Position numbers and translations under genes: made by a program. The notes beneath the pieces were generated by a model. It saw only the letters and a list, made by a program, of their open reading frames with translations. It was not told the origin of the DNA and did no database searches. From an uncultured Bacteroidia bacterium (GTDB lineage: Bacteria; Bacteroidota; Bacteroidia; Bacteroidales; UBA932): a DNA stretch of 64,000 nt. Location: contig CACZMF010000010.1 in NCBI GenBank assembly GCA_902782225.1, positions 27,045 to 91,044 of the forward strand, written 5' to 3'. Every line of letters begins with the position of its first letter. Position 1 is the first letter of the stretch. Below are positions 1,706 to 47,000 of this stretch, piece after piece.

Positions 1706-4700
1706 TTAGTCTGCCTTGCGGATGCAACGCAGCTCCATTCCGTGGAGATAGTTGCCGTAGCTCAGCATAAGCTTGCCAAGAGGACTGGCGGCGGTGAAAG
1801 TGCTCATCATACAGAAGTACTGCACATTGTTGCCTGCCGCGTTAGGCATGTAAGGCGTAGAGCACATGACCTGGTTGAGTGCGGGCTTGCCGACCCACTC
1901 GGAAACTGAGCAGGTGTTTTCCTTGGTTGCAGCCGCGTTATATTTTCCAGTCTGCGACAGGCTGGTCTTGGCACGTACTCCGAGGAACGCGAAATTCCAT
2001 CCGGCGTCATTGAACGCAGGAATGCTGGAGCCCGAATACGCAGCGACCCAATACACGGCGCTGGCGTCTGCCACAGCAGAAGTCTCGGGATTCACCGGCA
2101 GGGAGTCATCTTTGTTGGAAGCGCCAACGAGTTTCAGGAAGTCTGCACGGGTAGGGATGTACCAGCCCGGAGGGCAGATGCCCTGGACGCCTTCGAAGTC
2201 GCGGAAGTTGCCAATAACTGCGCCGGCCTGATATTCAGCCTTGGTGCCATAGGTGATTGCATCCTGGGCAACACCGAAAGCGGTAGGATAATCGTAGAGG
2301 TAGCCGTCTTTGAAATCGGTCCTTGCGGTCGTGTTGGTGCCGTCGGTAGTGTAGGTGTACCATATACCTGCATCCTCGACAGGGTCGGAGGAAACGGTCT
2401 TTCCTTCAGGCACATAGGCCATAGGAGCAGCCATCCACCAGCGGCCGTCGGCAAGCTTCACGAGAGGGTACTCCTTCCCGTGGTAGGTGAACTTGTTGTT
2501 CGCCAGATCCTCGACGAATACGGGAGCCTTGAAATTAGTGTATATAACGTGAAGACCGGAAGTGTTATTCTTTGAGCCGCTGACAAGGGACTCGAAATTG
2601 GTAGCGTCCACAGTAGTACCGTTAACGGAACCGGCTACCGAGATAGGTGATTCTGTCGTACCGAGGACAATATCCTTATCGTCGCCGTTGAACAGACCTA
2701 CCACGAGACCGGTAGCATCAGCAGGTCCGCCTATCAATGTGCAGTCCACGGAACATCCGTCCATACCGGTGAATGCTACGTTGCCCAGATTGCCCACAAG
2801 GCCGCCAAGAGCATTGATAGTGCACTGCGCTTCCACGGTGCCTCCGGCGGTACAGTTGGAGAAGGTATGAGCCTGGCTGTGGAAACCTGCAATGGAACCG
2901 GCGACAGAACCGGAATCTGCACTTATAATGGTAATTTTTCCTGTGTTGCTGCATCCGTCCATACGGCCTGTGCCGCCATGGATACCGCCGGCACGGATTT
3001 TAATACCTGCTCCTTCATAAGTGATGTCTCCGGAATTGTTGCAGTTCTTTGCAGTATACGGAGTCGAAGAATTTTCAGAACCAGGCCAGCCGGAAATACC
3101 GCCGATGGCATTGTTGGTCGAATGGGTATTGTCGGTCTTGTAATACAGGTTGCCGGTGTTGTTGCAATTCTCAAGGGTAAACTTGTTGAGTTTGTTGTTG
3201 TCTGTACCTCCGCTTGTAGTCGTTCCGCTGAAATTGTATCCAGAACCGACGATACCGCCGATATAGAAGGTATAACCCGCATTCTTGGGAGTGAAAGCAG
3301 TACCGTTGCCCAGAACGACAGACACATCTCCGTGGTTGTCGCAACCTGTCATAGGACCGGAGCAGTCGCCGACCAGGCCGCCAACCGAAGGACGTGCGGC
3401 GGTGTGGGTACCGTCGGTGCTGGAAGGATTGTTGAGAGTCAGGCTGACCTTGCCAAAATTCTCACAATCGGTAAACACGGGATTCGTGCCGGTTGCGGAC
3501 ACAAGGCCACCGGCAGTCAAACCGGCAGTGATGGCATTTGTACCATTATAAACTTTAGAGTTGATATCACCGATACCATTACGGCCGTTGATACGGGCAG
3601 CAGTCACGGTCACGTCGCCACGGTTCACGCAGCCGGACATGGTGTTGCTTGCAAAATAGCCCGCAATACCTGCAACGAAGGTAGCTTTCAGGGATGCACC
3701 GGACTGGAACGTGATCTTGCCGGTGTTCACGCAATCGGTAGTGGCACCTGTGGTGTAGCTGGACACACCGGCGAGGCAAAGTGCTGCCTCATGCCCGGCG
3801 CAGATGAAAGACACGTTTCCGGTGTTCTTCACCTTGATATTGTTGCTGCCATTGGTGGTTCCGCCTGCGACACCGCCCATGTAGAAGTTCTTGGTATTAG
3901 TTCCCGAGCAGGTTATCGAAAGAGCACCGTTATTGATGCATTCACTCAAGTTGTTAAGTGTCGAGCCACCCATGGAACCGACTATGGTTCCGACATACTG
4001 GGTACCGCCGGTATTGGCAACAGTAGTGATGATCATATCACCGTTATTGACACAGTTCTCAATGGTCAGGGCATCACTCGCAGAGGGGGATGTCGATACA
4101 CCGACAATGGCGCCGAGACGGCCGCCCTTGAAATTCACATCGGTGCCGCTGATATCGGCATTATTGGTGATACCGCAGACCCTTCCGAGGTTGCTTACCA
4201 CGACAAATGCGAAGTTGGTAATTTCGGCGGGAAGAGAGAGCTGGCAGCTTGCATCGAGCGTGAAATCCTTCACGGTTCCCTTGTTTTCAGCGAACAGTGC
4301 CGTGCCGTTGGAGGTCCAGTTCTTCAGGCTGAGGCCCTGGCCGTCGAAGGTGCCGGCGAAAGACGTTGCAGTGGGGAGAGTGACTCCGGTCAGGTCGATG
4401 TCGGACGTAAGCCTCACTTCCTCATCAGCCTTATAGGAGGCTGCGTTGTTGAGGAAGAACACCAGTTCATCGGCATTTGAGATATTCTGGATCATGCTGA
4501 CCGCCTTTGCGTTGGTGGCGACATCGCCAAGGTCAATCACCTGATTGCGCTGGAATTCTCCTTCAGCGTCAGTGGAGAGCACCTTGATGGAGCCGCCGAC
4601 ATAGGAACGCACGGTGAAACCCTTGTAGGCCCCGGGAGCGATTGCGGCGTAGTAGACCTGATCCTTGACAAAGCCATCCACGCACGCAATTTCGATGGAA

Positions 4701-8626: not shown

Positions 8627-9823
8627 TTATTTGCGGTACTTGGCAGGCATCACGAAATGGTATGTGACTTCCAGGGGCTTGTCCACGTCGACCAGCCAGT
8701 TGGCCACCTTGAAGTGCACGTCGAACTCATCCAGGCCTATAGGCTTGCGGCTGTCGGTGCCGTTGACCGAGAAACTGATTTCCTCGTCGCCGCTGATGTA
8801 TTGCAGGCGGCAGTAGGTCAGATTCTCACTGCCGGGGGCTTTATTGAGGATGATAGGAATCGAGCTGAGGTTGCGTATCGTGAAAGTGACTTTCTTCTCG
8901 CTGTATTTGATATTGCTGATTTCGAAGCACGCCTTGAAAAGAGGCTCGAGCCATTCGGCCTTGCCATACACGCATCCGTCGGCATAAGCGGCGGTGCGGC
9001 GGGCATCGAGAGCCTCGCGGATGCCCTCCAGCGAACGCTCCCTGGCGAACACGAGGGTCATGGGCCTGTACTCTCCCTTCTCATAGTCGACCCACTGGAA
9101 CATGGGCTTGTGGGCATCGGTGCCAGTGACGATCGCCAGATCTTTCTCAATGGCCCAGTGGAAGGCCTCGGGGTCGAAGCCGCTGAAGCGGTTTATGATT
9201 TCTATGCCGTCGATGAGGCCGGCATTGAAGAGCTCCGTATGGATAGGCCACCACTTCGTCTCGTTGGGAGCCTGCTGCTCCCAGTCGGGATGGTTCCACA
9301 CCAGGAAGGCGCCCTGGCGCTTTGCCTCCTTGAGTCCGGCGCGGATTGCCTCTTCTTCCTGGCGGACTTCATCGGAGCCATACTTGCCGTCGTACGTCTC
9401 GGACTTCTCGGCTATGGCATTGCCGTCAGTGATGAACTGGGTGTTGAAATGCCCCGGGAAAATGCGGGTGCCGCGGGTGAGCTCGGCGCCGTGGATCACG
9501 AGGATGCCGTATTTCTTTGCAGCCTTTGCAGCCATTTCATAGGAGGTATTCCTGTCTGCCCTGGCGTTGAAATCCTTGAGCATATGCTGATGGTGGGTCT
9601 CCACGTGGTCGGTGATGGAGATGAAGTCAAGGCCGTCGAAATCAGCTTCATCCACACGGGTAACGGGCCACACGGAAGCATCGCTGAAATTGGTGTGGAT
9701 GTGGAAATCCCCCTTAAGGGTCTGATAACCCGGGATGTCGGGAATCCGGGCTTTATGGGGCACGGTGGCGGAAGCTGAAACCGTAACTGACAGCGCCACA
9801 AGGGCAAGCAATAATTTTCTCAT
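8627..9823 (-). CDS. Secreted PHP-domain metal-dependent phosphoesterase-like protein
   Basis: 398 residues. The ATG at 9823 gives a clean signal peptide (MRKLLLALVALSVTVSASA); the longer frame to 9847 would bury it. The mature protein opens with the PHP signature DFHIHTNFSD (HxH metal ligands), followed by SITDHVETH and later VWNHPDWEQ and TGTDAHKP, which supply the remaining metal ligands of the histidinol-phosphatase/PHP fold. A C-terminal domain of about 100 residues is beta-rich. Exported PHP proteins like this are common in Bacteroidetes; the substrate is unknown. Divergent from rpsU, with its own TATATTTG element at 9845-9852. Confidence 0.85.
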   Translation of the reverse strand: MRKLLLALVALSVTVSASATVPHKARIPDIPGYQTLKGDFHIHTNFSDASVWPVTRVDEADFDGLDFISITDHVETHHQHMLKDFNARADRNTSYEMAAKAAKKYGILVIHGAELTRGTRIFPGHFNTQFITDGNAIAEKSETYDGKYGSDEVRQEEEAIRAGLKEAKRQGAFLVWNHPDWEQQAPNETKWWPIHTELFNAGLIDGIEIINRFSGFDPEAFHWAIEKDLAIVTGTDAHKPMFQWVDYEKGEYRPMTLVFARERSLEGIREALDARRTAAYADGCVYGKAEWLEPLFKACFEISNIKYSEKKVTFTIRNLSSIPIILNKAPGSENLTYCRLQYISGDEEISFSVNGTDSRKPIGLDEFDVHFKVANWLVDVDKPLEVTYHFVMPAKYRK

Positions 9824-33049: not shown

Positions 33050-33164
33050 CGTGAAAAATACGTAAATATTGGCCGCTGGCACAAAACTGCACTGACAGTA
33101 GAGATTTCATAGGGAAATCGGCTGCATCATTCCCGATCGGAAGGAGAATCGGCCATGCTGACTG

Positions 33165-33290
33165 ATAATTGCCCAAAATCCGTCAGGAAGCCGGCAAAAA
33201 CACCCGTTCTGACGGATTTTCGGCCAAAAGTCGCCAGGAAGCCGGCAAAAACACACGTTCTGACGGAAAATCGCCCAAAATCCGTCCGTG
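33165..33290. repeat. Dispersed palindromic intergenic repeat, copy 1
   Basis: Alternating half-sites AAAATCCGTCAGGA and TTCTGACGGATTTT, separated by GCCGGCAAAAACAC segments; the roughly 32-bp block CAGGAAGCCGGCAAAAACAC...CGTTCTGACGGA occurs twice in direct repeat. The same half-sites occur at 59083-59157. It fits a REP/BIME-like non-coding element. It ends where the 55-bp direct repeat begins. Confidence 0.7.
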
Positions 33291-33336
33291 GAGAATGACT
33301 ACAAGAATGCACTCGCAGCCATTGAGCGGATGAAAT
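33282..33336 (+). repeat. 55-bp direct repeat, left copy
   Basis: 54 of 55 bases identical to 39697-39751, same orientation, 6,415 bases apart. Begins CCGTCCGTGGAGAATGACTA. May be an attachment-site core or scar of an integrated module whose right end lies in the recombinase-like gene. Confidence 0.8.
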
Positions 33337-33344
33337 GCTCTTAA
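33282..33344 (+). pseudogene. 3' tail of a second copy of the recombinase-like gene at 38341
   Basis: The last 20 codons of a frame (PSVENDYKNALAAIERMKCS, stop TAA) match the end of the 38341-39756 protein, PSVENDYKNALAAIERMKS. The DNA is identical over 55 bases except one (A at 33317 against T at 39732). No upstream coding part is present; the palindromic repeat abuts it. Its stop overlaps a convergent minus-strand fragment, as the intact gene's stop overlaps ridA. Confidence 0.75.
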
Positions 33345-33556
33345 ACGCCGTCGGTGCCGTCTTCCCGGTGCTTGCGCTCGTAGGCGAGCAGTTTGGCGTC
33401 CTCATAGCGGGAGCGGTTTTCGTCGAACTGGCGGTCCCATTCGCGGTAGTACTCCATCTTCGGGTCCTCGAAGAGCGACATCTGGATGGCGGATTCGTGG
33501 GTAAGCTTGCTCACGCCGAGGCCGACCTGGCGGAGAGGGGTGACGCCGTCCCACCG
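33341..33556 (-). pseudogene. C-terminal fragment of a Y-family DNA polymerase (DinB/UmuC-like)
   Basis: The homologous part begins at RWDGVTPLRQVGLGVSKL and continues ESAIQMSLFEDPKMEYYREWD, the typical little-finger end and SLFDD clamp-binding-like tail of Bacteroidales DNA polymerase IV. The catalytic part is missing. The open frame runs on to 33706 but that extension (MEVDSNFFFRKS...) is unrelated. The cut lies in a 27-bp repeat (33551-33637). Confidence 0.6.
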
Positions 33557-33637
33557 ATGAAGCAGGGTAGGAGCATTCCGCCCCATTTTTGCTCCTACCG
33601 TTCCACCAAAGAAGCAGGGTAGGAGCACTCTACCCCA
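33551..33637. repeat. 52-bp-period duplicated motif with hairpin
   Basis: GAAGCAGGGTAGGAGCA occurs at 33559 and 33611, each preceded by CCACC and followed by a similar CCCCA segment. Between them GTAGGAGCA / TGCTCCTAC can pair. It sits exactly at the truncation of the polymerase fragment, so it may be a recombination scar. Confidence 0.6.
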
Positions 33638-33778
33638 ATATGTTAAAAAGGTGTTTATAAAAAACCGGCAACTTTTTCTAAAGAAAAAATTGGAATCCAC
33701 CTCCAAAATTTGTAATTTGGCAACTTGAAATGAGGGTATAGCAAATCAAACGTTATATTTAGACGGCGGCGCGCCCAT

Positions 33779-33803
33779 AGCGCCAATGCTTAAGGCGTAG
33801 ATG
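33779..33803 (+). repeat. 25-bp inverted repeat, left copy (candidate inversion site)
   Basis: Perfect reverse complement of 38294-38318. Begins AGCGCCAATGCTTAAGGCGT. Within it AGCGCC and GGCGT face each other across about 9 bases, the arm-spacer-arm form of a tyrosine-recombinase core site. The enclosed 4.5-kb segment holds an intact tyrosine recombinase gene. Confidence 0.85.
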
Positions 33804-33850
33804 ATACCCGCGTAAGATGTTGATTATTTATACTTTAAACACATAACATT

Positions 33851-34012
33851 ATGGACAAAAACAAAGCGACGTATGAACGTCCTACAACCAATCTGCTCGT
33901 GGTACGATTCGAGCAGGGTCTTTTAACTGGCAGCCCTTATGGAACGAGAGGAGCCGCCGGTGGCACGATGAGCGTCAATAACCTTGGCGATACTGATGAA
34001 GATCTCTATTAA
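33851..34012 (+). CDS. Small protein (53 aa) preceding a surface lipoprotein
   Basis: ATG 33851 to TAA 34010-34012. It lies 12 bases before the lipoprotein ATG at 34025, the same layout as the 45-residue ORFs at 5327 and 8453. Shared pattern: Tyr8-x-x-Pro11, Glu21-x-x-Leu24-Leu25 and Ser28-Pro29, then a Gly-rich middle and an acidic end with a final aromatic residue (DEDLY). No signal peptide. Function unknown. It is inside the candidate invertible segment. Confidence 0.65.
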   Translation: MDKNKATYERPTTNLLVVRFEQGLLTGSPYGTRGAAGGTMSVNNLGDTDEDLY

Positions 34013-34024
34013 TCCTGCAGCCTT

Positions 34025-36388
34025 ATGAAGAATTTGTTTAGAATCCTGTGTGGCCTGTCGATAGTCGGTATTGCCACAGTTGCTTGCAACAAAGAGATTG
34101 AAAAAGAGGTTGCTCCCGAAACCCCTGTCATTTCCAAACACAGTGTAAAGGTGAAGGCTGGTTTCTCTGAGGAGACCAAGACAGTTATGCTTAGTTCTGG
34201 CGATCAGACCAAATGGACGGCTGGTGATGATGTCAATATGCATTTCTTTGAAAATGGTATTGCTCCAGATCCCAACGACTTAGCTGTATCTCTTAACGCG
34301 GAGGAGACAGAATTGACCATTATGGCTGAATTCGCTAACACATCTGCCACCAAGTACGTCTATACGTCTATCCTCGCGTCCAATCTTGATGCAGAAGGGA
34401 ATGCAACGATACCTGCTGCCCAGGATATTTTGGACGGCACTTTTGATCCCGATGCTGATGTCCTTGTAGCAAAGCCTGAAGAGTTCGCCGCAAGTCAGAG
34501 CCTTGAGGAGTTTACAATGCAGTACAAACGTGTTGTGGCTGTTAATAAGATTAAGATTAAGGGGCTTACCGCAGGCGACAAAATATCCTCTGTTACTATA
34601 AGCTCGAACAAGCCTTTCCTGGGCTCCTATAGTATGACTAATGATGCTTGGACCAATAGCGGAAATGAGCTGAACTTGAATGCAACATCAGAACCCATCA
34701 CAGTTCCTACCAGCGGCGAGGTCTCTCTCTGGTTCATCACTGCTCCAGTGTCTGATGCTACCCTTTCAATCTATGTCGTGACTGACAATCACCAGTATGA
34801 GAAGGATTTCACAAAGACCATATCCTTTGCCGCCAACACTGTAACTTCTTTTGCAACTACAGTTGCTGCAAGTGAAGTTGGTACTGGTGGTGGTGATTTT
34901 GTTAAGTTCACTTCTACAGCAGGTATTGAGGCTGGTGAGTATGTTCTTGTTCACGAAGATAATTCTTCTCCGAAGATTTTTACAGGCGTTAGCTCATCTT
35001 CTTATGGAATTGGTGAAAATGTAACTATTGATGAAAATAAGATACTCAATGAGAACGTCAGTGCATCATCCGTTCTCACTGTTGCGGCAGCAAGTGAAGG
35101 AACAGCGTGGGTAATCAAGCAAGGGAGTTCATTCTTTAATTGGAGTTCCGGTAACTCTTTGACTTTTGCTACCAGCGAAAGTAATAATACAAGATGGACT
35201 ATTTCATTCGATAACAGTGGAAATGCAACAATAGCAAACGTTTCCGATTCCAATCGCAAACTTCAGTGGAATAGTAGCAACCCTCGTTTTGCGTGCTACA
35301 CATCGTCACAAGCCAAGGTTCAGTTATATAAGAGGGAGGCAGGTGGACTTGCTAAATCTGCTCTTGCCAAACCTATTGTGACTCTGGAGCGCAACGCTAC
35401 TAAGGACGGAATCATCGTTTCTTGGGCTGATGTCAACAAGGCAGGCAGTTACACGGTAACCTGCACAGGTCAGGAGCCCAAAACCATTGATCAAGGAATC
35501 CAAACAGCCGAATTTACAAATCTTGATCCCTCAAACTACACTGTTACTGTTACTGCAAACCCCGCTAATGCAGATCGCAATACAGCTACCACTTCTGACG
35601 AGGTAAGTATTGAGATTTATAATTACAATCTTGTTGCGCCTACCATGTCCTTCGTCGCTGGTGATGATAATATTGTTGTCTCTTGGAATGCTATCCCGAA
35701 TGCTTCAAGTTATACTTATTGTGTTTTGAAAGGAGAAGAGGTGGTAGTGGCTGAAACCACTATTCAGGGAACCACTTTCACGGCTAGTAACTTAGCAGAT
35801 AACACCGAATATACATTTAAGATTAAGTCTATTGGCGAAGGTGATTTCATATCTTCGGATTATGCCGTTCAGCAACAGAGTACTCTAGAGCTCAAGCCTG
35901 GTAGTAAAAAGACTTATTCTATCTCGAGTTCTACATCCGCCGCTAATTCTTTTAACAAGTTATTTGGTGGCACAAATAATAGTGCCGTTACTGTTAACCA
36001 TGTTACCAATAAGCAAATTACCCTTAACTCTGATAGCTGGTTCATTACAACTACAGGTAACGGCACCGTAATATATGCATCTGGTCAACAATTAGGAGCA
36101 AAAGCAAGTAGCAATGTCATTCGTGATATCACATCTTTGACGATGTCAACAGCTGCATATACTGACCGTATTAGTAATGTAACAGTTAACACACAATCAA
36201 ATGGCGAAACGACGCTATCGTTGTATGTCAATGATGTTTTAATTGACACTAAAGATATTACTAGTGCCGCTACTGACTATACATTCACTTTGTCAGAATT
36301 GACCAAGGGTAGTATTAAACTTGTTTGGAATAATAGTTTGGCTAGTAAGAGTATTACTTTGGCCTCAATTACGATTAACAATGATTGA
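34025..36388 (+). CDS. Surface lipoprotein, fimbrillin-like N-terminus with fibronectin type III domains
   Basis: 787 residues. Lipoprotein signal ending IATVAC-NKE. Residues about 40-290 resemble fimbrillin-like proteins (FSEETKTVMLSSGDQTKW, WTAGDDV). About 300-440 is a beta-rich module. Two fibronectin type III-like domains follow (about 455-545 and 547-620; KDGIIVSWADVNKAGSYTV, DNIVVSWNAIPNASSYTY), then a beta-sandwich end (about 625-787). Codon use is visibly more A/T-rich than the core genes, suggesting transfer. A Gly-rich linker and remnant nuclease sequence follow the stop in another frame, so the protein may once have been longer. Confidence 0.75.
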   Translation: MKNLFRILCGLSIVGIATVACNKEIEKEVAPETPVISKHSVKVKAGFSEETKTVMLSSGDQTKWTAGDDVNMHFFENGIAPDPNDLAVSLNAEETELTIMAEFANTSATKYVYTSILASNLDAEGNATIPAAQDILDGTFDPDADVLVAKPEEFAASQSLEEFTMQYKRVVAVNKIKIKGLTAGDKISSVTISSNKPFLGSYSMTNDAWTNSGNELNLNATSEPITVPTSGEVSLWFITAPVSDATLSIYVVTDNHQYEKDFTKTISFAANTVTSFATTVAASEVGTGGGDFVKFTSTAGIEAGEYVLVHEDNSSPKIFTGVSSSSYGIGENVTIDENKILNENVSASSVLTVAAASEGTAWVIKQGSSFFNWSSGNSLTFATSESNNTRWTISFDNSGNATIANVSDSNRKLQWNSSNPRFACYTSSQAKVQLYKREAGGLAKSALAKPIVTLERNATKDGIIVSWADVNKAGSYTVTCTGQEPKTIDQGIQTAEFTNLDPSNYTVTVTANPANADRNTATTSDEVSIEIYNYNLVAPTMSFVAGDDNIVVSWNAIPNASSYTYCVLKGEEVVVAETTIQGTTFTASNLADNTEYTFKIKSIGEGDFISSDYAVQQQSTLELKPGSKKTYSISSSTSAANSFNKLFGGTNNSAVTVNHVTNKQITLNSDSWFITTTGNGTVIYASGQQLGAKASSNVIRDITSLTMSTAAYTDRISNVTVNTQSNGETTLSLYVNDVLIDTKDITSAATDYTFTLSELTKGSIKLVWNNSLASKSITLASITINND

Positions 36389-36720
36389 GATGGCTCCGGA
36401 GGCGGAACCTTCGGGGTGGGAACACCACAAATGATGATTCCGGTTATGGAACGGGGTGGCTGGAGCTGCCCCGCTCCTCCGCCGGGAGCAATTTGATGAC
36501 GGGAACGTACCGGGACGGCAACGGAGAAGTAGAAAGCGCTTGCTCGATCGGCTTCTGGTTCGTCCATCAGGAATACTCCGACAGCTCGTACGGCAACTAT
36601 GCCGTCAGCGTGAACACAATCGAGGAACGGACAGGATTGGACCTCTTCTCCAACCTCTCCGATTCAATCGAAGAGAGTGTCGAGAACAACAGCAACTGGC
36701 AAAGCTTCCAGAACTTCTAA
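36389..36720 (+). pseudogene. Internally deleted DNA/RNA non-specific endonuclease domain
   Basis: After the lipoprotein stop, a Gly-rich linker leads by a frame change into GYGTGWLELPRSSAG, the opening of Bacteroidales NUC1-type endonuclease domains. About 25 residues later it jumps to CSIGFWFVHQEY and AVSVNTIEERTGLDLFSNL, the last part of the same domain. The central roughly 200 residues, including the DRGH catalytic motif, are missing. No credible start codon exists (only TTG at 36385). It reads as the relic of a C-terminal nuclease domain of the upstream lipoprotein. Confidence 0.7.
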
Positions 36721-36739
36721 GGAGTATATACAAACTTTT

Positions 36740-36770
36740 AGTGGCAGTCACAATTACAGTGGCTGCCACT
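36740..36770 (+). repeat. Small inverted repeat
   Basis: AGTGGCAG / CTGCCACT with a 15-base loop, 20 bases after the nuclease relic ends. No T-run follows, so a terminator role is weak. A related ACAGTGGCTGCC block recurs near 37228. Confidence 0.4.
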
Positions 36771-36789
36771 ATTGCACAGGACAAGGTGG

Positions 36790-36838
36790 CCCTGGTCCGA
36801 GATTGGCGACTGGCGGCTTGACTTGATGATTGGATTGT
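36790..36838 (-). pseudogene. Short diverged duplicate of the adjoining Rpn fragment
   Basis: On the minus strand it reads NPIIKSSRQSPISDQGHL, closely matching DPIFESSRQSPIPDQDKL inside the fragment at 36842-37159. Too short to be a gene; it shows that the Rpn sequence was partly duplicated. Confidence 0.5.
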
Positions 36839-36841
36839 GTT

Positions 36842-37159
36842 TTATTTAATACTGTTTAGTTCTTCAATGGAAAGGCCTGTGTATTTTGACACCAGGTCCG
36901 GGTCTACTTCATCTTGCAGCATCTGCCGCGCCACCTCTGCGCGACCTTTAGCATAGTACTCCTCGGCTATCTCTTTGCGGTCTTCGTCGGTGAGGTATGA
37001 GCGAACGTCGTCGTTGAACATAGAGCGAAAGTATTGAAGTTTGTCCTGGTCCGGAATCGGTGACTGGCGGCTCGACTCGAATATCGGATCGTACTTCCCG
37101 CCGTACTGCTCCGGCTTTCTGGCAAAATTACTCATATTTTGCAGAATATAAAACCATAC
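36842..37159 (-). pseudogene. C-terminal fragment of an Rpn-family PD-(D/E)XK nuclease/transposase-like protein
   Basis: Homology starts at VWFYILQNMSNF and runs through KYDPIFESSRQSPI, YFRSMFNDDVRSYLTDEDRKEIAEEYYAKGRAEVARQML to the usual tail DPDLVSKYTGLSIEELNSIK. Full proteins are about 300 residues; the N-terminal nuclease domain is missing. Rpn proteins promote recombination and are often fragmented. On the opposite strand 37141-37296 carries another unassigned open tail (EAFFAKLPDSNKEFEALTTT). Confidence 0.7.
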
Positions 37160-37311
37160 TTGACGATGGAGAGGCCTTTTTCGCCAAACTTCCCGACTCA
37201 AACAAAGAATTCGAGGCACTCACAACAACAGTGGCTGCCTCTTATAGCCTGTATAAAGACTACTTGGATTTTTGTTATAATCCCGACTTGTTATAATAAT
37301 TCAAGTATACT

Positions 37312-38247
37312 ATGACTCAACTGACATTCTCACAAGTCGCTTCCCTATGGAAAGCAGACAAACGACAGTATGTGAAACCATCTAGCTATGCAGCCTATGT
37401 GCTGCACCTGAACAAACATTTATTGCCTGTATTTGGCAACAAACTCACAATCACACATAATGATGTGCAGGATTACGCCAACAGGAAACTCGAGCAAGGC
37501 CTCGCTCTTAAGACAGTTAAAGATTCACTGCTGATCTTCAAAATGATCTACCACTACGGCGAAAGGATGAGCCTGTGGCCGCATCTCGATTTCAGGGTGC
37601 ATTATCCTACCTTCTCTGACAATAATAAACCTTTGTCTGTTCTATCGGTGCCGCAGCAACAGCGGCTGCTCAACTATTTGAAAGATAACTTCTCATTCCG
37701 GAACCTGGGCCTTCTTATATGCCTGCACAGCGGACTGCGTATTGGAGAGATTTGCGGGCTGCAATGGAACGACCTTGATGTCAAGACAGGTGAGATACAC
37801 GTCCGAAAGACGGTGTCTCGTATTTGGCTTTCAGACGGAGAAGAAAAGGAGTATTACCTTACCGTCGGTACTCCAAAAACGTTAGCATCCATACGAGACA
37901 TTCCTATTCCCAGGCTTCTTTTAGAGCTGGTGCGTCCACTCAGGAAGATTGTTAATCCGGATTTCTATGTGGTCTCCAATGGGCCTAAACCTCTGGAACC
38001 ACGATATTACCGGGACTATTACGCGAAAGTCTTGCGCGAACTGAATATTCCTCACATCCGGTTCCATGCTCTGCGCCATAGCTTTGCCACCAGGTGCGTT
38101 GAGAGTAAGTGTGATTATAAGACTGTGTCAGTTATACTCGGACATGCTTCCATCTCCACCACTTTGGATCTGTATGTGCACCCTGGTTACGATGAGAAAA
38201 GAAAATGTATTGAAAAGGCTTATCATCCACTATTGCAGAAGAAATAG
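37312..38247 (+). CDS. Tyrosine site-specific recombinase with intact active site
   Basis: 311 residues. N-terminal SAM-like core-binding domain (about 5-100). Catalytic domain with Arg143 (HSGLRIGE), a lysine near 189, His252-x-x-Arg255 (HALRHSFATR), His278 (LGHASISTT) and nucleophile Tyr288 (LYVHP). All catalytic positions are present, so it should be active. It ends 46 bases before the right 25-bp inverted repeat and lies inside the segment those repeats enclose, the arrangement expected of a local invertase. A/T-rich composition like the adjacent lipoprotein suggests they moved together. Confidence 0.92.
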   Translation: MTQLTFSQVASLWKADKRQYVKPSSYAAYVLHLNKHLLPVFGNKLTITHNDVQDYANRKLEQGLALKTVKDSLLIFKMIYHYGERMSLWPHLDFRVHYPTFSDNNKPLSVLSVPQQQRLLNYLKDNFSFRNLGLLICLHSGLRIGEICGLQWNDLDVKTGEIHVRKTVSRIWLSDGEEKEYYLTVGTPKTLASIRDIPIPRLLLELVRPLRKIVNPDFYVVSNGPKPLEPRYYRDYYAKVLRELNIPHIRFHALRHSFATRCVESKCDYKTVSVILGHASISTTLDLYVHPGYDEKRKCIEKAYHPLLQKK

Positions 38248-38285
38248 ATTAAAGCGGGAAAAATGGAGGTTTCGGGAGATTTTAT

Positions 38286-38293
38286 TATATTTG
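38286..38293 (+). promoter_or_regulatory. Promoter -7 element abutting the right inverted repeat
   Basis: TATATTTG ends exactly one base before the inverted repeat starts. It reads outward over the repeat into the 38341 gene. On inversion the same promoter would point leftward out of 33779. The upstream box is weak (TTTC only 12 bases away). Confidence 0.55.
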
Positions 38294-38318
38294 CATCTAC
38301 GCCTTAAGCATTGGCGCT
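38294..38318 (+). repeat. 25-bp inverted repeat, right copy (candidate inversion site)
   Basis: Perfect reverse complement of 33779-33803. Begins CATCTACGCCTTAAGCATTG. The expected transcription start of the adjacent TATATTTG box falls within it, 40 or so bases before the ATG of the recombinase-like gene. Confidence 0.85.
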
Positions 38319-38340: not shown

Positions 38341-39756
38341 ATGAACCCGATAAGCCCTCTATATGCCCTCGCTCTCCGATGGGAAAAAGAGAACGGAGAC
38401 CTCTTCAGCAAAGAGACCCTCGAGCTCTACGACCACTTCATCGTCACCCAGATAGACCCTTACTTCGAAGGCAAAACCGAAATCCCCGAACAGAAGGTCC
38501 GCGACTTTATGAAAGACAAAGCGGAAGCAGGCTTCTCCGAATCTGCCATCTACAAGATGCAGCGCATCCTGGCCAGAGTCCTCGAATACGGAGCCGCCAT
38601 CGGCGAATGCCCCGCACCCGGATGGAACCTCGAACTCGGCATCCCCAAAGCCAGAAAAGGAGCCACGATCCTCACCCCGGAAGAGCAGAGCCGTATGGAA
38701 CGCTTCCTCACTGACAACCCCGACACCAAGCACCTCTGCCTCTTCCTGATGCTCACAACCGGCATCGGCGTAGGCGAAGTGATGGACCTCAAATGGGAAG
38801 ACATACAGATGCGCACGAACAAAATCCGCGTACGCACAGAGCGCGGAATGGTCTCCAGACGCAAAGCCAAATACAGATTCGTCCCCATCGGCGAGCGCCA
38901 GAAAATCTACCTCAGGAAGATGGAGTCCCTTCCCACCATCTACCTTTGGACCGGCAAGCCCAAACAGATGTCCCCTACCGGCCTTCGCAGCAGCCTGATG
39001 CGTGTCCTGGACGAACTCCTCCTGCCCCAGATCCGTCTCTCCGACCTCCGGCATACATATGCCGTGAGAGCCCTGGAAGCCGGCACTACCTATAAGGTCC
39101 TAACCAAGGAACTGGGCCTTCTGGACACCCGCGACGTCCGCAAATACTACGAAGGATTCCTCGCCCCCGAAGTGCGCGAAGCCCGCGAGAAGGAATACAC
39201 CGACGACTTCCTCCCCAAAGTGTGGCCCAAGCACACCGAGCACCTGGGACCGGACCAGTACCCCGAAGCCGTGGAGATCCGCAAGAAGATAGAGGCCAAA
39301 AAAAAAGAACTCCAGTACGTGCTGGACAACCTGGAATTCGACCTGGACATCATACGCACCCTCCGGAACTCCGATTGCGTGCAGGGGAAGGCACGAGAGG
39401 GGCTGTACAAGTTCGTAGAGAAGGTCCTGGGGCCGGACGACAAGGACGGGCAGTACCTGGTGGAATATATGCGCTATAACATGCGCGTGGCCACGATGCC
39501 GCTGCGGGTTAATAACGTGACCACTGTCCAAGCCATCCGCAGCCGGGTATCACACGGCTTTGAGAAGCTGTGCAAACGGCTGGACGAGATAAATGCCGTA
39601 GAGGGTTGGGATATCCTGGGGATGTTCAAGGACTTGTGCGCCCGGATCGAGGAGGTGGCCCCTGCTGCCCCGCCCCGGAAAGGCCGCAGCCCCAAGCCGT
39701 CCGTGGAGAATGACTACAAGAATGCACTCGCTGCCATTGAGCGGATGAAATCATAA
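38341..39756 (+). CDS. Tyrosine-recombinase-like protein with altered catalytic residues and long C-terminal extension
   Basis: 471 residues from the ATG at 38341, 23 bases after the right inverted repeat. Residues 1-110 are a core-binding-like domain; 110-275 match the recombinase catalytic fold. The first catalytic Arg is Gly143 (TTGIGVGE for the usual GLRxGE), the HxxR His is Ser234 (SDLRHTY), and the LGH His is Leu260 (ELGL); Arg237 and Tyr269/270 remain. Residues 275-471 are an extra helical region of unknown role with a coiled stretch (about 310-345) and a basic Pro-rich linker. Likely DNA-binding but weak or inactive in strand cleavage. Its 3' end is duplicated at 33282. Confidence 0.8.
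   Translation: MNPISPLYALALRWEKENGDLFSKETLELYDHFIVTQIDPYFEGKTEIPEQKVRDFMKDKAEAGFSESAIYKMQRILARVLEYGAAIGECPAPGWNLELGIPKARKGATILTPEEQSRMERFLTDNPDTKHLCLFLMLTTGIGVGEVMDLKWEDIQMRTNKIRVRTERGMVSRRKAKYRFVPIGERQKIYLRKMESLPTIYLWTGKPKQMSPTGLRSSLMRVLDELLLPQIRLSDLRHTYAVRALEAGTTYKVLTKELGLLDTRDVRKYYEGFLAPEVREAREKEYTDDFLPKVWPKHTEHLGPDQYPEAVEIRKKIEAKKKELQYVLDNLEFDLDIIRTLRNSDCVQGKAREGLYKFVEKVLGPDDKDGQYLVEYMRYNMRVATMPLRVNNVTTVQAIRSRVSHGFEKLCKRLDEINAVEGWDILGMFKDLCARIEEVAPAAPPRKGRSPKPSVENDYKNALAAIERMKS
39697..39751 (+). repeat. 55-bp direct repeat, right copy
   Basis: Lies within the last codons of the recombinase-like gene; 54 of 55 bases match 33282-33336. Together the two copies bound a 6.4-kb accessory module. 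Confidence 0.8.
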
Positions 39757-40170: not shown

Positions 40171-40980
40171 TTAAATATGCAAATCGCGATTTTTCAAGGT
40201 GTTATCCTCTTCCAGCAAAAGGTTCCTTAAAAAACGGACAAGGTATTCATTTGTGGCAGATATTCCTTTCGGGTAGTTGTTATAATTGGCCCTGACCAAG
40301 GCATTTCGGAAATACCAGGAGTGATCTTTGAACATATCATTCTTCACTTCAAATCTGAACGATTGAAGATACTTCATGGTAAATACTGCGGTCGTACGTG
40401 TATTCCCTTCACCGAAAGGATGGATTTGCCAGATTCCAGATATAAATCTGGCAATTTGTTCAATGGCCTTGTCCGTGTCAAGAAGGGCATAATTGACCTG
40501 TCTCTCCTGAGAAAAATCATAGTTCAACGTTTCTTGAATCATTGACGCGCTGGCATACAAGACCGTATCGCCGTCTAACACCCATTCCCGTTTGGTGATA
40601 TCATAATCGCGATAACGCCCGGCGAACTTGAATATACCCTGAAACAAATGGCGATGAATTCTTGCTAAATACTCCGGAGAAAATGAGAAAGCTTTTTCTG
40701 TAAGAAGTTCTTCTATACGCGCGGACACCTTATCTGCTTCCTCAGCCCTCTCATCCTCAACTTCCGCCCTGGCAGTTTTGGACTTATAATAATCATCCAG
40801 CATCTGTTTGACATCGTCGATAGAGATGTCGCCCTCGATGTGTTTCCTGGCGGTATCAATCAAGTATGCCGACGGTTTCAGCCCGTCAACATCCTGAAGG
40901 CCGATAGCCGTCTGCCAAGCAGCTGCCTTCTCTTTTTTTCCGGGCTCTCCCTGCCGGATATACTCATCAAATTCGCTCAT
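40171..40980 (-). CDS. Fic-domain AMP-transferase-like protein with an N-terminal antitoxin-like segment
   Basis: 269 residues. Fic motif HPFGEGNTR with catalytic His187; the usual GNGR is GNTR here, keeping the acid Glu191 and Arg195. Upstream flap region IFKFAGRYRDYDITKREWVLDG is typical. Residues about 30-70 (RKHIEGDISIDDVKQMLDDYY) resemble a fused VbhA-type antitoxin helix that could block the ATP site; this part is inferred. It transfers AMP or a related group to target proteins. Stand-alone gene 42 bases upstream of ridA on the same strand. Confidence 0.85.
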   Translation of the reverse strand: MSEFDEYIRQGEPGKKEKAAAWQTAIGLQDVDGLKPSAYLIDTARKHIEGDISIDDVKQMLDDYYKSKTARAEVEDERAEEADKVSARIEELLTEKAFSFSPEYLARIHRHLFQGIFKFAGRYRDYDITKREWVLDGDTVLYASASMIQETLNYDFSQERQVNYALLDTDKAIEQIARFISGIWQIHPFGEGNTRTTAVFTMKYLQSFRFEVKNDMFKDHSWYFRNALVRANYNNYPKGISATNEYLVRFLRNLLLEEDNTLKNRDLHI

Positions 40981-42882: not shown

Positions 42883-44001
42883 TCAATGATTGATGAGTTT
42901 GCCGATTAATTCACGGACAGATAGCTCTTCTTTCCCGTGTTTAATGAGAAACTTAAAGAGTTTTTCTTTATCTTCTTTGATGTCTCCAGTCTTAATAATT
43001 TGGAGATTATTGAGGCCGAACAACGTTGAGAGATTCCAGTCTGTCATTTTCTCCAAAGACCGTTTGATTTGGAGTTCCGAAGCAGCATCACGAGTAAAGA
43101 TTGTAATGTCCTTTCGGCGAGTGCCGGCAAAGTTCGTTTGTTGGAGGAAAAAGGCTTTGAAATACTGGCGGTCATTTTCACCGATAGAATGACCAAAGAT
43201 AACTACTTCGTCAGCATCTTGCAGGTCAGCCACAAGAGCAGGCGGATTGAATGAGGGATCGAAGGATTTCTGAAGGAAGTCATAGTTTTCTATTATTTCA
43301 CCCTCATCACGCGTACCAATAATGATTTTGCCATCGCTGCAGCTTCCGTGCATATAATGGATGATAGCATCTTTGGCAGGATAAACAAAATGCTTGACAT
43401 CCGTATAGTTAAAGGAATAAATAGCCACAGAGCATTTTATTTCTCCTTCAATTGCCAAGAATTGAAGAACCTGATATGCTACTGTATTTCTTGCTTCCCG
43501 CTCATATTTAAGACTCTCCAGATATTTACAAAGACCATCTTTAATCCGTTGAAGGGCCTTCCTGTCTCGCAATACAGGCGATAGAGATAAGTCTTCCATG
43601 TATGGAACATAAAGCGGGCGAATAGCACTATCTGAGACGAGAATCACTCTCTTATCGATTAAGGACCGAACTATACTCACCTGGTCGTTATACTCCCCAT
43701 AGTCCCACTTGTACGGCTCGAAAACCATTAGGAAATCTTTCTCCTCCTCGGTAATGAAGTCTTCTGGGTTACCGGGCGAAGCCATGCCCATATAGTACTT
43801 CATTAGTTCATTCTCAAGGTCATACCATTTGACGGCTTCCAGGTTATCTGGCCAACACTGGTTCAGATGATGAATGAGCGGCGCAGGATAGTCCTTGGGG
43901 CAGAAATCAGACTCCCAAAAGTCTTTATATGACGTTTTGAGGCCAAGGTCAAGGTCAAAACCATTCCCAAGGATAAGGACTATTTTTCGTAATTCAGACA
44001 T
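42883..44001 (-). CDS. AbiH-like abortive-infection protein
   Basis: 372 residues from the ATG at 44001. The family signature is at the start: KIVLILGNGFDLDLGLKTSYKDF, a nucleotide-binding-like loop typical of AbiH proteins. Further family-like pieces: VKWYDLENELMKYY, IYSFNYTD, IHYMHGS, IIIGTRDEG and EVVIFGHSIGENDRQYF. Proposed role: phage-triggered abortive infection, mechanism unknown. It follows the STAND-like NTPase by 19 bases, so they form a two-gene unit. Very A/T-rich, unlike the core genome. Confidence 0.8.
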   Translation of the reverse strand: MSELRKIVLILGNGFDLDLGLKTSYKDFWESDFCPKDYPAPLIHHLNQCWPDNLEAVKWYDLENELMKYYMGMASPGNPEDFITEEEKDFLMVFEPYKWDYGEYNDQVSIVRSLIDKRVILVSDSAIRPLYVPYMEDLSLSPVLRDRKALQRIKDGLCKYLESLKYEREARNTVAYQVLQFLAIEGEIKCSVAIYSFNYTDVKHFVYPAKDAIIHYMHGSCSDGKIIIGTRDEGEIIENYDFLQKSFDPSFNPPALVADLQDADEVVIFGHSIGENDRQYFKAFFLQQTNFAGTRRKDITIFTRDAASELQIKRSLEKMTDWNLSTLFGLNNLQIIKTGDIKEDKEKLFKFLIKHGKEELSVRELIGKLINH

Positions 44002-44020
44002 ACAAATACTATCCGCACTC

Positions 44021-47000
44021 CTATCTATCAATATAATATAGTCTGCGAAAATAATCAATCGCTTTTTGGCAGTCTGTAATTTGCTGTTTAATGTAAGTAC
44101 AAATAGGAATCAATTTAACACCAAGTTTGGAAGAGTTGACATCCTCTAAAAGTCGTTCCCAGCGCTCTACTTCAATTTCTCCAGGGTTAACATTACCACT
44201 ATACACTACAGACTCTGGTCTTGTCCAATTGATCGCCTCGAAAAGCGCAACATCCGTAGTTTGATTCAAAAATTCACATACAATTGAACGCATGAGTCCT
44301 GGCATATTAGAAACCACGACTTTTACCACAGCATTCATTTTGATATGATTCGTATAATTACCCTTGACATAAGCAAGAAGGAATGCTTGGGCTCTTGGTA
44401 TTTGATTATTAGGAATACATTCAAACAGTTTTTCATATATACCATCAAACAAGTTCCAGTTATGTTCGATCATATGATCAAACGCCGACATCATCATTTC
44501 ATTGTCTTCCAATGACCAGAGAAAACCTAAAGCAGGAATCTCATCATCGTTTTTGAATGATTTAAGGTACTGAATCAAAAAGGAGTTGTCATACTGTAAC
44601 AAACGAAGCAATGATGATTTCTGATAATCAAAACTTGATTTCTTTTGACAAACCAAATAACTTTTCTCCACAAGATCAAGAGGAACATGATTATCTAATG
44701 CATACTCAATCCACTCTTCATCAAGAATCGGCAAGCTCTTGTCTATAATATGTTGAATTATCTGCTCCGTTACAATCGGGTGTTGCACAAGCAATTCCCG
44801 ATAAGGTTCACATCGTAAATACCCTTTTGCCGTGAGACTTTTCACTGTAAGTAAAAAACGATCTCTCCAGAGATTTGTAATACACTTTTGTGGTAAATTA
44901 GCAAAAAAGTGAAGTTGACTCTGAACATCGGCGACTTTAATCGCATCCCATATTTTTGAGTACTTGTACCTCAACTGCATATGATTACGAAAAGGGAGAT
45001 GTGGATGATAATCATATGGGATTAGTTCTCGGAATAACGATAAGCCTCTGGAGAAGCAATGCCTCATTGTTTCATCTACTATAAAATCCAAAGCCTCATT
45101 AAATCGATAATTGTCATAACTTTGAGTCCCTGATGCGATTATTCTGTAGTTATTAATAAATGCATTTTGATCATTTTGGCCTTTTATGAGATACGTTTTT
45201 CTCACAAGTCGTTCCCAGTTTTTATTACCATCATAGTTGTTGCCTTTAGTAAAAACAATATACATCTCAAATGCGGGACTCGTGAATGTTTTTGAGAGCT
45301 TTAGAAAAAGCGTATTCCGAATCTCGAGCCGTTTGTATAAGTTCTTTAGTTTCCTAACTGTAAGACAATGACAGAAATCGTTACGATACAAATGTTTATC
45401 TATAATATGATTGACATATTGGCGATCATATCTTACAACAGGTTTTGACACGTCATCTACGATACCACCATAATTGCTTAAGATTTTGTTGATGACGTTA
45501 ATTGGAAGTAAAGATACCATCTCCCAGGTTCGTTCTCGGATTGATTTGATATCCTCAGTAAGACCTATGTTTATGGTTGTAAATGTAAAGCTATTTCCTC
45601 GTCCTCCCTTTGTATCATGAAATGTGAAACTAAGCAGCATCTTTGCAACTTCAGGGAATGCGGCCAAAGCGATGGAATCATTAGGGATAAGAGGTTTAAA
45701 GAATTCTAATAGTTTCTTTTGCCGAATGTATCCGAATCGCCTATCTTCAAGGCCAAGATTGAATGATTCGTTTAGAGTGTATATTAGCAGGGGCATTTGT
45801 TCTGGGCGTTTGCGAACAATGTCGAGCATTATTTCCAGACAACTTGTAACGTAATCAAAATGATTACGACAAAGCCTTCCCAATAACTGCAAATCGTTGT
45901 GCTGTGAGAATACAAAATCATTGTTGTTGTACTCCGTCTGATATGCAACATTTGTAATATCAACAAGTCCTGTTAAATGCTTGAGTACAAAAGTGAGGGT
46001 GAGTTCCGGAATGAAAAAATAAAAAGTTTCATAGAAATCCCTCCGGCATTCCTCCGGCACCTTATGCGAGTATGAATTAAGAGACGATTCAATTCTCTCT
46101 TTGACTCCTTTGTATCCGTAAAGATTGGTAACAGGAATAATTGAATCCTTGAAATAAGAAACAGAGGAAGTAAAAAAACTCTCTAAAAGTGTATCGAATG
46201 AAAGTAAGCCATCCAAGAGAAAAGCCTTGTAAAAATAATAAAGTCCAAGGTTTTGTTCTGATATTTTTACGATGTCAGAGTCAATATCAACCAATTCACA
46301 ACTTGATAAATTGCTGCACGCCTCTATAAAATCGTCACGTCCGATTTCGAAGGCAGTTAACACTTCGTCTAATTTACTGGCATTTAATTCAATGTGGTGG
46401 AAAAAACCCAATAATCCCAAGACTTTAATGTAAAGTGTTTCTTTGATAAATGGGACATCTTTTTCTATTCTGGAAAAATAATTGCCAAATAAGTCTGCAG
46501 CATTATGAAGCGAATCCAAACTGTTTGTTTCTAAAGCCAACAAGGAGGCCATAATAGCAAGTCGGGGATTCCCTTTAGCAATATCATTTATCGCAGACTG
46601 AAAAGCGGTATTCCTAATATTAAACGGATCACTAGAAATAATACCAGTGATTTCATCATCTGTGAATGTTGAAATGGATATATCCTTATATCGATATTCT
46701 TTAATTATATGAACAACTTCATCAAGGAGATAATTTCTAACGGTAATTATAAGCTTTCTGGCAGGAAGATCCTTCCTTAAATAATTCTCCAAAAAAGAAT
46801 CTATCGAATCTTTGGAAATACGGTGTATATCATCTATAAACAGAAGGATATTTGAAGGCTCCGTCCGTAAACTGTTAAGCTCTTTTTTACAAGAATCATT
46901 TATACTATTCAAAGCAAAGCACTTCATACTGCTATTAAGGCGAAGACACGTTTCCACTGCAAGTTTTGTCTTCCCTGTTCCAGCTGAACCACTCAAGACT

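Follow-up and report, generated by a model that had tools for sequence, protein, structure and literature searches.

The 64-kb stretch of DNA analysed here (the window), from an uncultured bacterium of the order Bacteroidales, carries a 4540-bp segment bounded by two inverted 25-bp sites. On comparative evidence, we consider it likely that the segment is a phase-variation switch, which would be inverted at the two sites by the tyrosine recombinase Rec1 and would turn two genes on and off together: one for a surface-lipoprotein candidate inside the segment, and one for Rec2, a tyrosine-recombinase paralogue encoded just outside.

The two copies of the site, AGCGCCAATGCTTAAGGCGTAGATG, agree in 25 of 25 positions, exactly where the original prediction had placed a perfect inverted repeat (Table 1). 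The identity ends at both edges of the 25 bases, and the flanks are weakly similar (83% over 40 nt including the 25). The arm-spacer-arm symmetry that had been ascribed to the repeat is present as CGCC-N9-GGCG only and is weak by itself. When up to 3 mismatches were allowed, the 25-bp pattern had no match in 100 shuffles of the window, while the 25-mer had 2 matches in the organism's draft genome, which comprises 34 contigs (2.58 Mb, 92% complete) and has the window at positions 27045-91044 of contig C10; its reversed-pattern control had none. The search of other genomes that had been proposed as a check, made at the same threshold in 400 genomes of the genus, returned the 25-mer from one, the organism's own, and from 0/399 others; the exact 25-mer had no match in viral contigs. 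The repeat is thus not one of many unrelated copies lacking a recombinase, but a single pair beside an intact recombinase gene. Inverted identical sites that bound a segment, together with a site-specific recombinase, are among the features of an inverton, of which the occurrence of both orientations in one population is another. With two sites in the draft genome, at the completeness and threshold given above, the locus falls short of the three or more expected of a shufflon.

From left to right, the left site is followed by a leader open reading frame (ORF) of 53 amino acids, the lipoprotein gene, an endonuclease relic, an Rpn-type relic on the other strand and the Rec1 gene; ORFs and domain searches bear out the predicted content of small ORF, lipoprotein, nuclease relics and intact tyrosine recombinase. 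Rec1 contains the domains Phage_integrase (PF00589, 6.6e-25) and Phage_int_SAM_3 (Pfam) and all catalytic residues of a tyrosine recombinase (R143, K189, H252, R255, H278 and Y288). Its stop codon lies 46 bases before the right site, so the complete active site and the position of the gene are both as predicted. The leader ORF had no match in Pfam. A long gene for a DNA/RNA non-specific endonuclease follows the lipoprotein gene in the related genomes G054, G331 and G394 (loci L066, L130 and L131, with a Pfam match in L066 and L131 and identified by eye in L130), and the window keeps its tail only.

Between Rec1 and the right site, the element TATATTTG (P_in) abuts the repeat and reads outward, as had been claimed. 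TAnnTTTG occurs 38 times in the 64-kb window, both strands counted, from which the chance of one on a given strand within 60 bases is about 2%. A second element, TATATTTA (P_out candidate), lies outside the left site and reads in. No clear -33 box was found at either element in the window; boxes resembling it were seen by eye in the related genomes G184 and G300.

In the proposed mechanism, Rec1, encoded inside the segment, would recombine the two identical sites and the segment would invert. In the present orientation, the outer promoter would read through the left site and keep the leader ORF and the lipoprotein gene on, while the inner promoter at the right edge would read through the right site and keep Rec2 on. 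After inversion, the start of the lipoprotein gene would face the Rec2 side without the outer promoter and be off, and Rec2 would be off as well, since the inner promoter would now face left and away from it. The lipoprotein gene is thus probably driven from outside the segment, so that one flip would cut two promoter-gene links. That inversion takes place today, that Rec1 is its agent and that the promoter elements are active we infer.

Counterparts of the segment in related genomes

The suggestion that inversion changes the expression of a surface-protein or recombinase-like gene is supported by the comparison, though not demonstrated, through the genomes G300 and G184 and through the hsdS and SusC contexts of the Rec1 family. 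G300, with a Rec1 65% identical, has the same layout on two contigs and an identical 36-bp site pair of its own. On contig C131 the order is Rec1, TAAATTTG, site and Rec2. A search of G300 with a pattern derived from its own Rec2-side site and that of G150 (up to 3 mismatches) gave 14 matches. Of these, 12 had 3 mismatches, about the level of the reversed control (13); the remaining two, the Rec2-side site and a place on contig C6 (C6:3821), are identical to each other in 36/36 bases. The C6 site lies 45 bases upstream of a leader ORF of 45 amino acids and a lipoprotein of 1042 amino acids, with TAAATTTG outside the site and reading in. Contig C6 ends in an Rpn-type fragment and the middle of the segment is missing; as the segment lies to the same side of either copy, the two would form an inverted pair if C131 and C6 are the two ends of one segment. 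Since G300 and the window have different sites, each in an identical pair, the two copies within a genome appear to be kept identical, as for a recombination substrate.

A third perfect pair (25/25) is found in G184 (the reverse complement of locus L175), whose Rec1 is 61% identical. It encloses Rec1, a leader ORF of 59 amino acids and a lipoprotein gene, B. From this segment TATCTTTG, with a TTTG 19 bases upstream, reads out to another lipoprotein gene, A, and TATATTTG, outside, reads in. The place equivalent to P_out is occupied by TAnnTTTG in both G300 and G184. In the closest relative, G150 (the same contig as L098), Rec1 (71% identical) and Rec2 (65%) stand head to head, and the promoter and site before Rec2 are conserved, with TAAATTTG in the place of P_in here as in G300. 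Alignments of the promoter and site upstream of Rec2 gave z scores of 13.6 for the window against G150 and 4.9 against G300, and the leader side gave 20.5 for the window against G300 (300 plain shuffles each).

In G061 the leader ORF and lipoprotein gene are divergent from Rec2, opposite to the window. The G061 leader aligns with the inner side of the window's left site (z = 14), while the window's promoter side gave z = 0.4 there. This is the layout expected of the window after inversion, which is suggestive only, as G061 is a distant species whose genome, 68% complete, has no detected Rec1. In G054, a lipoprotein gene and the long endonuclease gene run divergently from Rec1, which is enclosed by a 107-bp, 74% inverted repeat whose right arm ends 9 bases from the contig end. 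A comparison with an empty site by way of the neighbouring cation-efflux gene, of which a close copy exists in 7/61 genomes (own included), found none in five full-length relatives (L194-L198); in these, no other tested neighbour lies within 1.5 kb of the gene, and a further locus, L199, is a fragment.

The Rec1 family and known inversion systems

Relatives of Rec1 were found, by eye, beside inverted pairs of the type I restriction gene hsdS, both in the genus (55-57% identity; L068, L187-L190) and outside it (L101, 52%; L102, Chryseobacterium contaminans, 50%), beside SusC genes (L079, L081-L084, L086, L088, L093) and beside lipoprotein genes (among others L066, L074, L077, L089, L094, L100, L175). 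By Pfam, L068 and L102 were confirmed to carry Methylase_S (hsdS) pairs, and L084 a TonB-receptor plug. The relatives in L067, L072 and L186 are among those that lack both a repeat and such a pair. Within 300 bp, 13/53 Rec1-family genes and 10/248 other ORFs have a perfect inverted-repeat arm of at least 20 bp (Fisher p = 1.2e-5). The comparison ORFs come from the same loci, at distances above 2.5 kb, and have at least 200 amino acids; the count excludes the window and two duplicate contigs, and three loci with only short pieces were dropped. Counted with the window and the duplicates, the figures are 14/56 and 12/285. The family is also found near contig ends more often than expected: among 28 genes (E <=3e-43, own gene excluded), 5, 6, 11 and 11 lie within 500, 1000, 1700 and 2000 bp of an end, for 1.3, 2.5, 4.1 and 4.7 expected (P = 0.004, 0.016, 3e-5 and 2e-4, respectively).

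Two loci of the family were seen in passing. In L074, a 140-bp inverted repeat (3546-3685 and 8881-9020, 94%) carries the start of a leader ORF ahead of two lipoprotein genes that converge, next to a Rec1 relative, an arrangement that looks like a lipoprotein-swapping switch. In L086, the Rec1 relative stands between two SusC-like genes in inverted orientation (1.6 kb at 83%).

The hsdS-linked relatives liken Rec1 to the recombinases of hsdS invertons. Those loci exchange coding segments, whereas the sites in the window lie in leaders and would change promoter connections. The Hin switch of Salmonella also has the recombinase gene inside the invertible segment and an edge promoter that reads out to an outside gene. 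Hin, however, is a serine recombinase that needs Fis and an enhancer, and its segment lacks a structural gene that is served by a promoter outside it; the segment described here has a tyrosine recombinase, and its structural gene would be read from outside.

Inversions in Bacteroidales are described for promoters and larger segments as well as for restriction systems and SusC/D genes (PMC12632263, PMC4747536); flips within genes are described too. In Bacteroides fragilis, Tsr19 (BF2766) is described as flipping promoters at two places and as acting at a promoter of a gene cluster that includes a lipoprotein gene, and Tsr0667 as shuffling SusC/SusD genes (PMC4747536, PMC12632263). To the extent of these descriptions, the locus resembles the B. 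fragilis Tsr loci in its order, the tyrosine recombinase near its target, the inverted repeats, the TAnnTTTG promoter-like elements and the surface-protein or lipoprotein-cluster targets. It differs from Tsr19 and Tsr0667, to which it is likened by description only, in that the 4.5-kb segment holds both recombinase and lipoprotein, has one inner and one outer promoter-like element, and has Rec2 as its outward target. Neither a two-promoter arrangement nor a dead recombinase as outward target was found in the open-access literature searched, in so far as its text was available, and this design is probably unusual within a known kind of phase-variation switch.

Alternative explanations

Several observations weigh against a working switch. 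The second orientation has not been seen in this species, for which there is one assembly. G150 has one good copy of the site; each of the 11 further matches differs at 3 positions, and the reversed control gave 3 matches. As the contig stops 777 bp past Rec1, a missing and an unassembled second copy are indistinguishable. Rec1 points towards Rec2 in the window and G300 and away from it in G150 and G184. Its direction in G150 was dropped as a sign of inversion at these sites, since promoter and site stay with Rec2 there. Across the family, 40/53 genes have no such repeat in the stretches read, some of which are cut by contig ends, and at least one of the 13 that do (L183) has a 21-bp repeat resembling a common intergenic one. 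The weakest step in the window is the outer promoter, as TATATTTA is one base off the consensus and without a clear -33 box, though its counterparts in G300 and G184 match TAnnTTTG. This imperfect element and the nuclease relics in the segment would also fit a locked or fossil inverton, which inverted in the past and in which decay has since fixed one orientation, as would G331 and G394, where the cluster of lipoprotein, nuclease and Rec2 persists and neither Rec1 nor an inverted repeat was found in the stretches read. We regard such a fossil as unlikely, because the sites are identical over 25 bases and the reading frame and active site of Rec1 are intact; moreover, the relics are passenger genes and concern neither the lipoprotein nor Rec1.

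It is very unlikely that the repeats are instead the terminal inverted repeats of a mobile cassette moved by Rec1. No target-site duplication was seen by eye at the repeats, several members of the family flank inverted hsdS pairs, and in three species the site is accompanied by Rec2, a gene beyond the repeat, which makes the sites unlike element ends. The neighbours beyond the module do differ among the window, G150 and G300, and relics of the Rec2 3' end occur in G164, in G308 and to the left of the segment, as might be expected of a mobile cassette. Plasmids, searched with Rec2 only, gave 20 records, all below 60% identity and at most 27.7% among the 8 listed; phages, searched with Rec1 only, gave 611 records, all below 60% and at most 35.9% among the 8 listed. 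An origin from a phage, a plasmid or an integrative and conjugative element was rejected as unsupported by these searches and by that of viral contigs with the 25-mer. No phage structural or transfer genes were recognised among the ORFs of 33-40 kb, and the sites are inverted, not the direct-repeat attL/attR that would accompany mobility or phage genes in an integrative element; this result concerns the 25-bp sites. A 58-bp direct repeat (97% identical; 33279-33336 (+) and 39694-39751) corresponds to the 3' end of the Rec2 gene, the left copy being a relic of it. Finally, the sites could serve in two leaders as operators to which Rec1 or Rec2 binds, with no strand exchange. The site does adjoin promoter-like elements of the leader ORF or of Rec2 in the compared species, and a single copy was found in G150; as an operator does not require inverted copies that are identical in 25 or 36 bases, and as the repeats of the hsdS relatives lie within coding sequence, we consider this reading extremely unlikely.

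Rec2 and the surroundings of the segment

For a switch inverted by Rec1, Rec2 would be an uncommon target. Its start lies 22 bases beyond the right site, it is 25% identical to Rec1, and its C-terminal extension of about 190 amino acids has no assigned family: the sole Pfam match ends at residue 270, and the last 158 residues had no match in NCBIfam or PHROGs. A long Rec2 is present in 7/400 genomes of the genus at E <=1e-20 (42-100% identity; G000, which is the organism's own, G150, G300, G331, G394, G061 and G308). G308 holds an extra short Rec2 piece, G164 a short piece only, and the remaining matches are Rec1-like genes at 25-30%. Together with the relic to the left of the segment, these short 3' pieces may mean that such modules have been lost repeatedly. 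In the alignment of the seven proteins, the first arginine, the stretch with the lysine, the box-II histidine and the second histidine are lost in 7/7; the second arginine is kept in 7/7, and the tyrosine in 5/7, with phenylalanine in G331 and G394. Rec2 thus lacks the catalytic residues of an active tyrosine recombinase. As its reading frame has stayed open despite the lost active site, it probably has a function other than recombination. An AlphaFold model of Rec2, based on two sequences, had a mean predicted local distance difference test score (pLDDT) of 51.4 and a predicted template modelling score (pTM) of 0.27.

One rather doubtful possibility is that Rec2 serves as a latch. P_in would make the dead Rec2 in one orientation only, and Rec2 might then bind the sites of Rec1, or similar ones, and hold or bias that orientation, or regulate the lipoprotein cluster, a built-in memory made from a retired recombinase.

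Outside the segment, a tandem repeat with 51-bp spacing (33153-33286, two to three copies) lies just left of the Rec2 relic. To the right, the window encodes a Fic/DOC-domain protein (40171-40980 (-); PF02661, 3.2e-15) and, about 3 kb from Rec2, an AbiH-family protein (42883-44058 (-); PF14253, 7.1e-26), a candidate for abortive infection.

Table 1. Positions of the proposed invertible segment, its sites, elements and genes in the window.
Feature	Position	Strand	Remarks
DNA polymerase IV (DinB)-like C-terminal relic	33341..33706	-	Outside left site; match below cut-off
TATATTTA (P_out candidate)	33754..33761	+	Outside left site, reads in to lipoprotein; 7/8 match to TAnnTTTG
Left 25-bp recombination site (inverted-repeat arm), putative	33779..33803	+	In leader of small ORF and lipoprotein genes
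Proposed invertible segment	33779..38318		4540 bp, both sites counted; basis: repeat pair and comparison
Leader ORF, 53 amino acids	33851..34012	+	'Y..P....LVVRFE' kind, as before such lipoproteins; relatives by eye in G300, G061, G037, G282
Surface-lipoprotein candidate, 787 amino acids	34025..36388	+	fn3 domain (Pfam); lipobox-like TVAC and acidic residues after Cys (by eye)
DNA/RNA non-specific endonuclease C-terminal relic	36385..36720	+	Pfam match below cut-off
Rpn-type nuclease/transposase relic, weak	36842..37219	-	TIGR01784, E 0.004, below cut-off
Rec1, tyrosine recombinase, 311 amino acids, proposed invertase	37312..38247	+	Complete active site
TATATTTG -7 element (P_in)	38286..38293	+	Inside segment, abuts right site, reads out to Rec2
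Right 25-bp recombination site, putative	38294..38318	-	Between Rec1 and Rec2; homologous promoter and site before Rec2 in G150 and G300
Rec2, tyrosine-recombinase paralogue, 471 amino acids from ATG	38341..39756	+	Incomplete catalytic centre, conserved C-terminal extension

Rec1 points to a recombinase family with members next to hsdS, SusC and lipoprotein genes within a single genus. At the locus described here, a single inversion would make or break the connections of two promoters at once, one outside and one inside the segment, and would thereby tie a surface lipoprotein to Rec2, a protein that has lost its catalytic centre and kept its reading frame in each of the seven genomes with a long Rec2. 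Should Rec2 act on the switch, it would show in a simple natural case how a recombinase can evolve into a regulator that depends on orientation.

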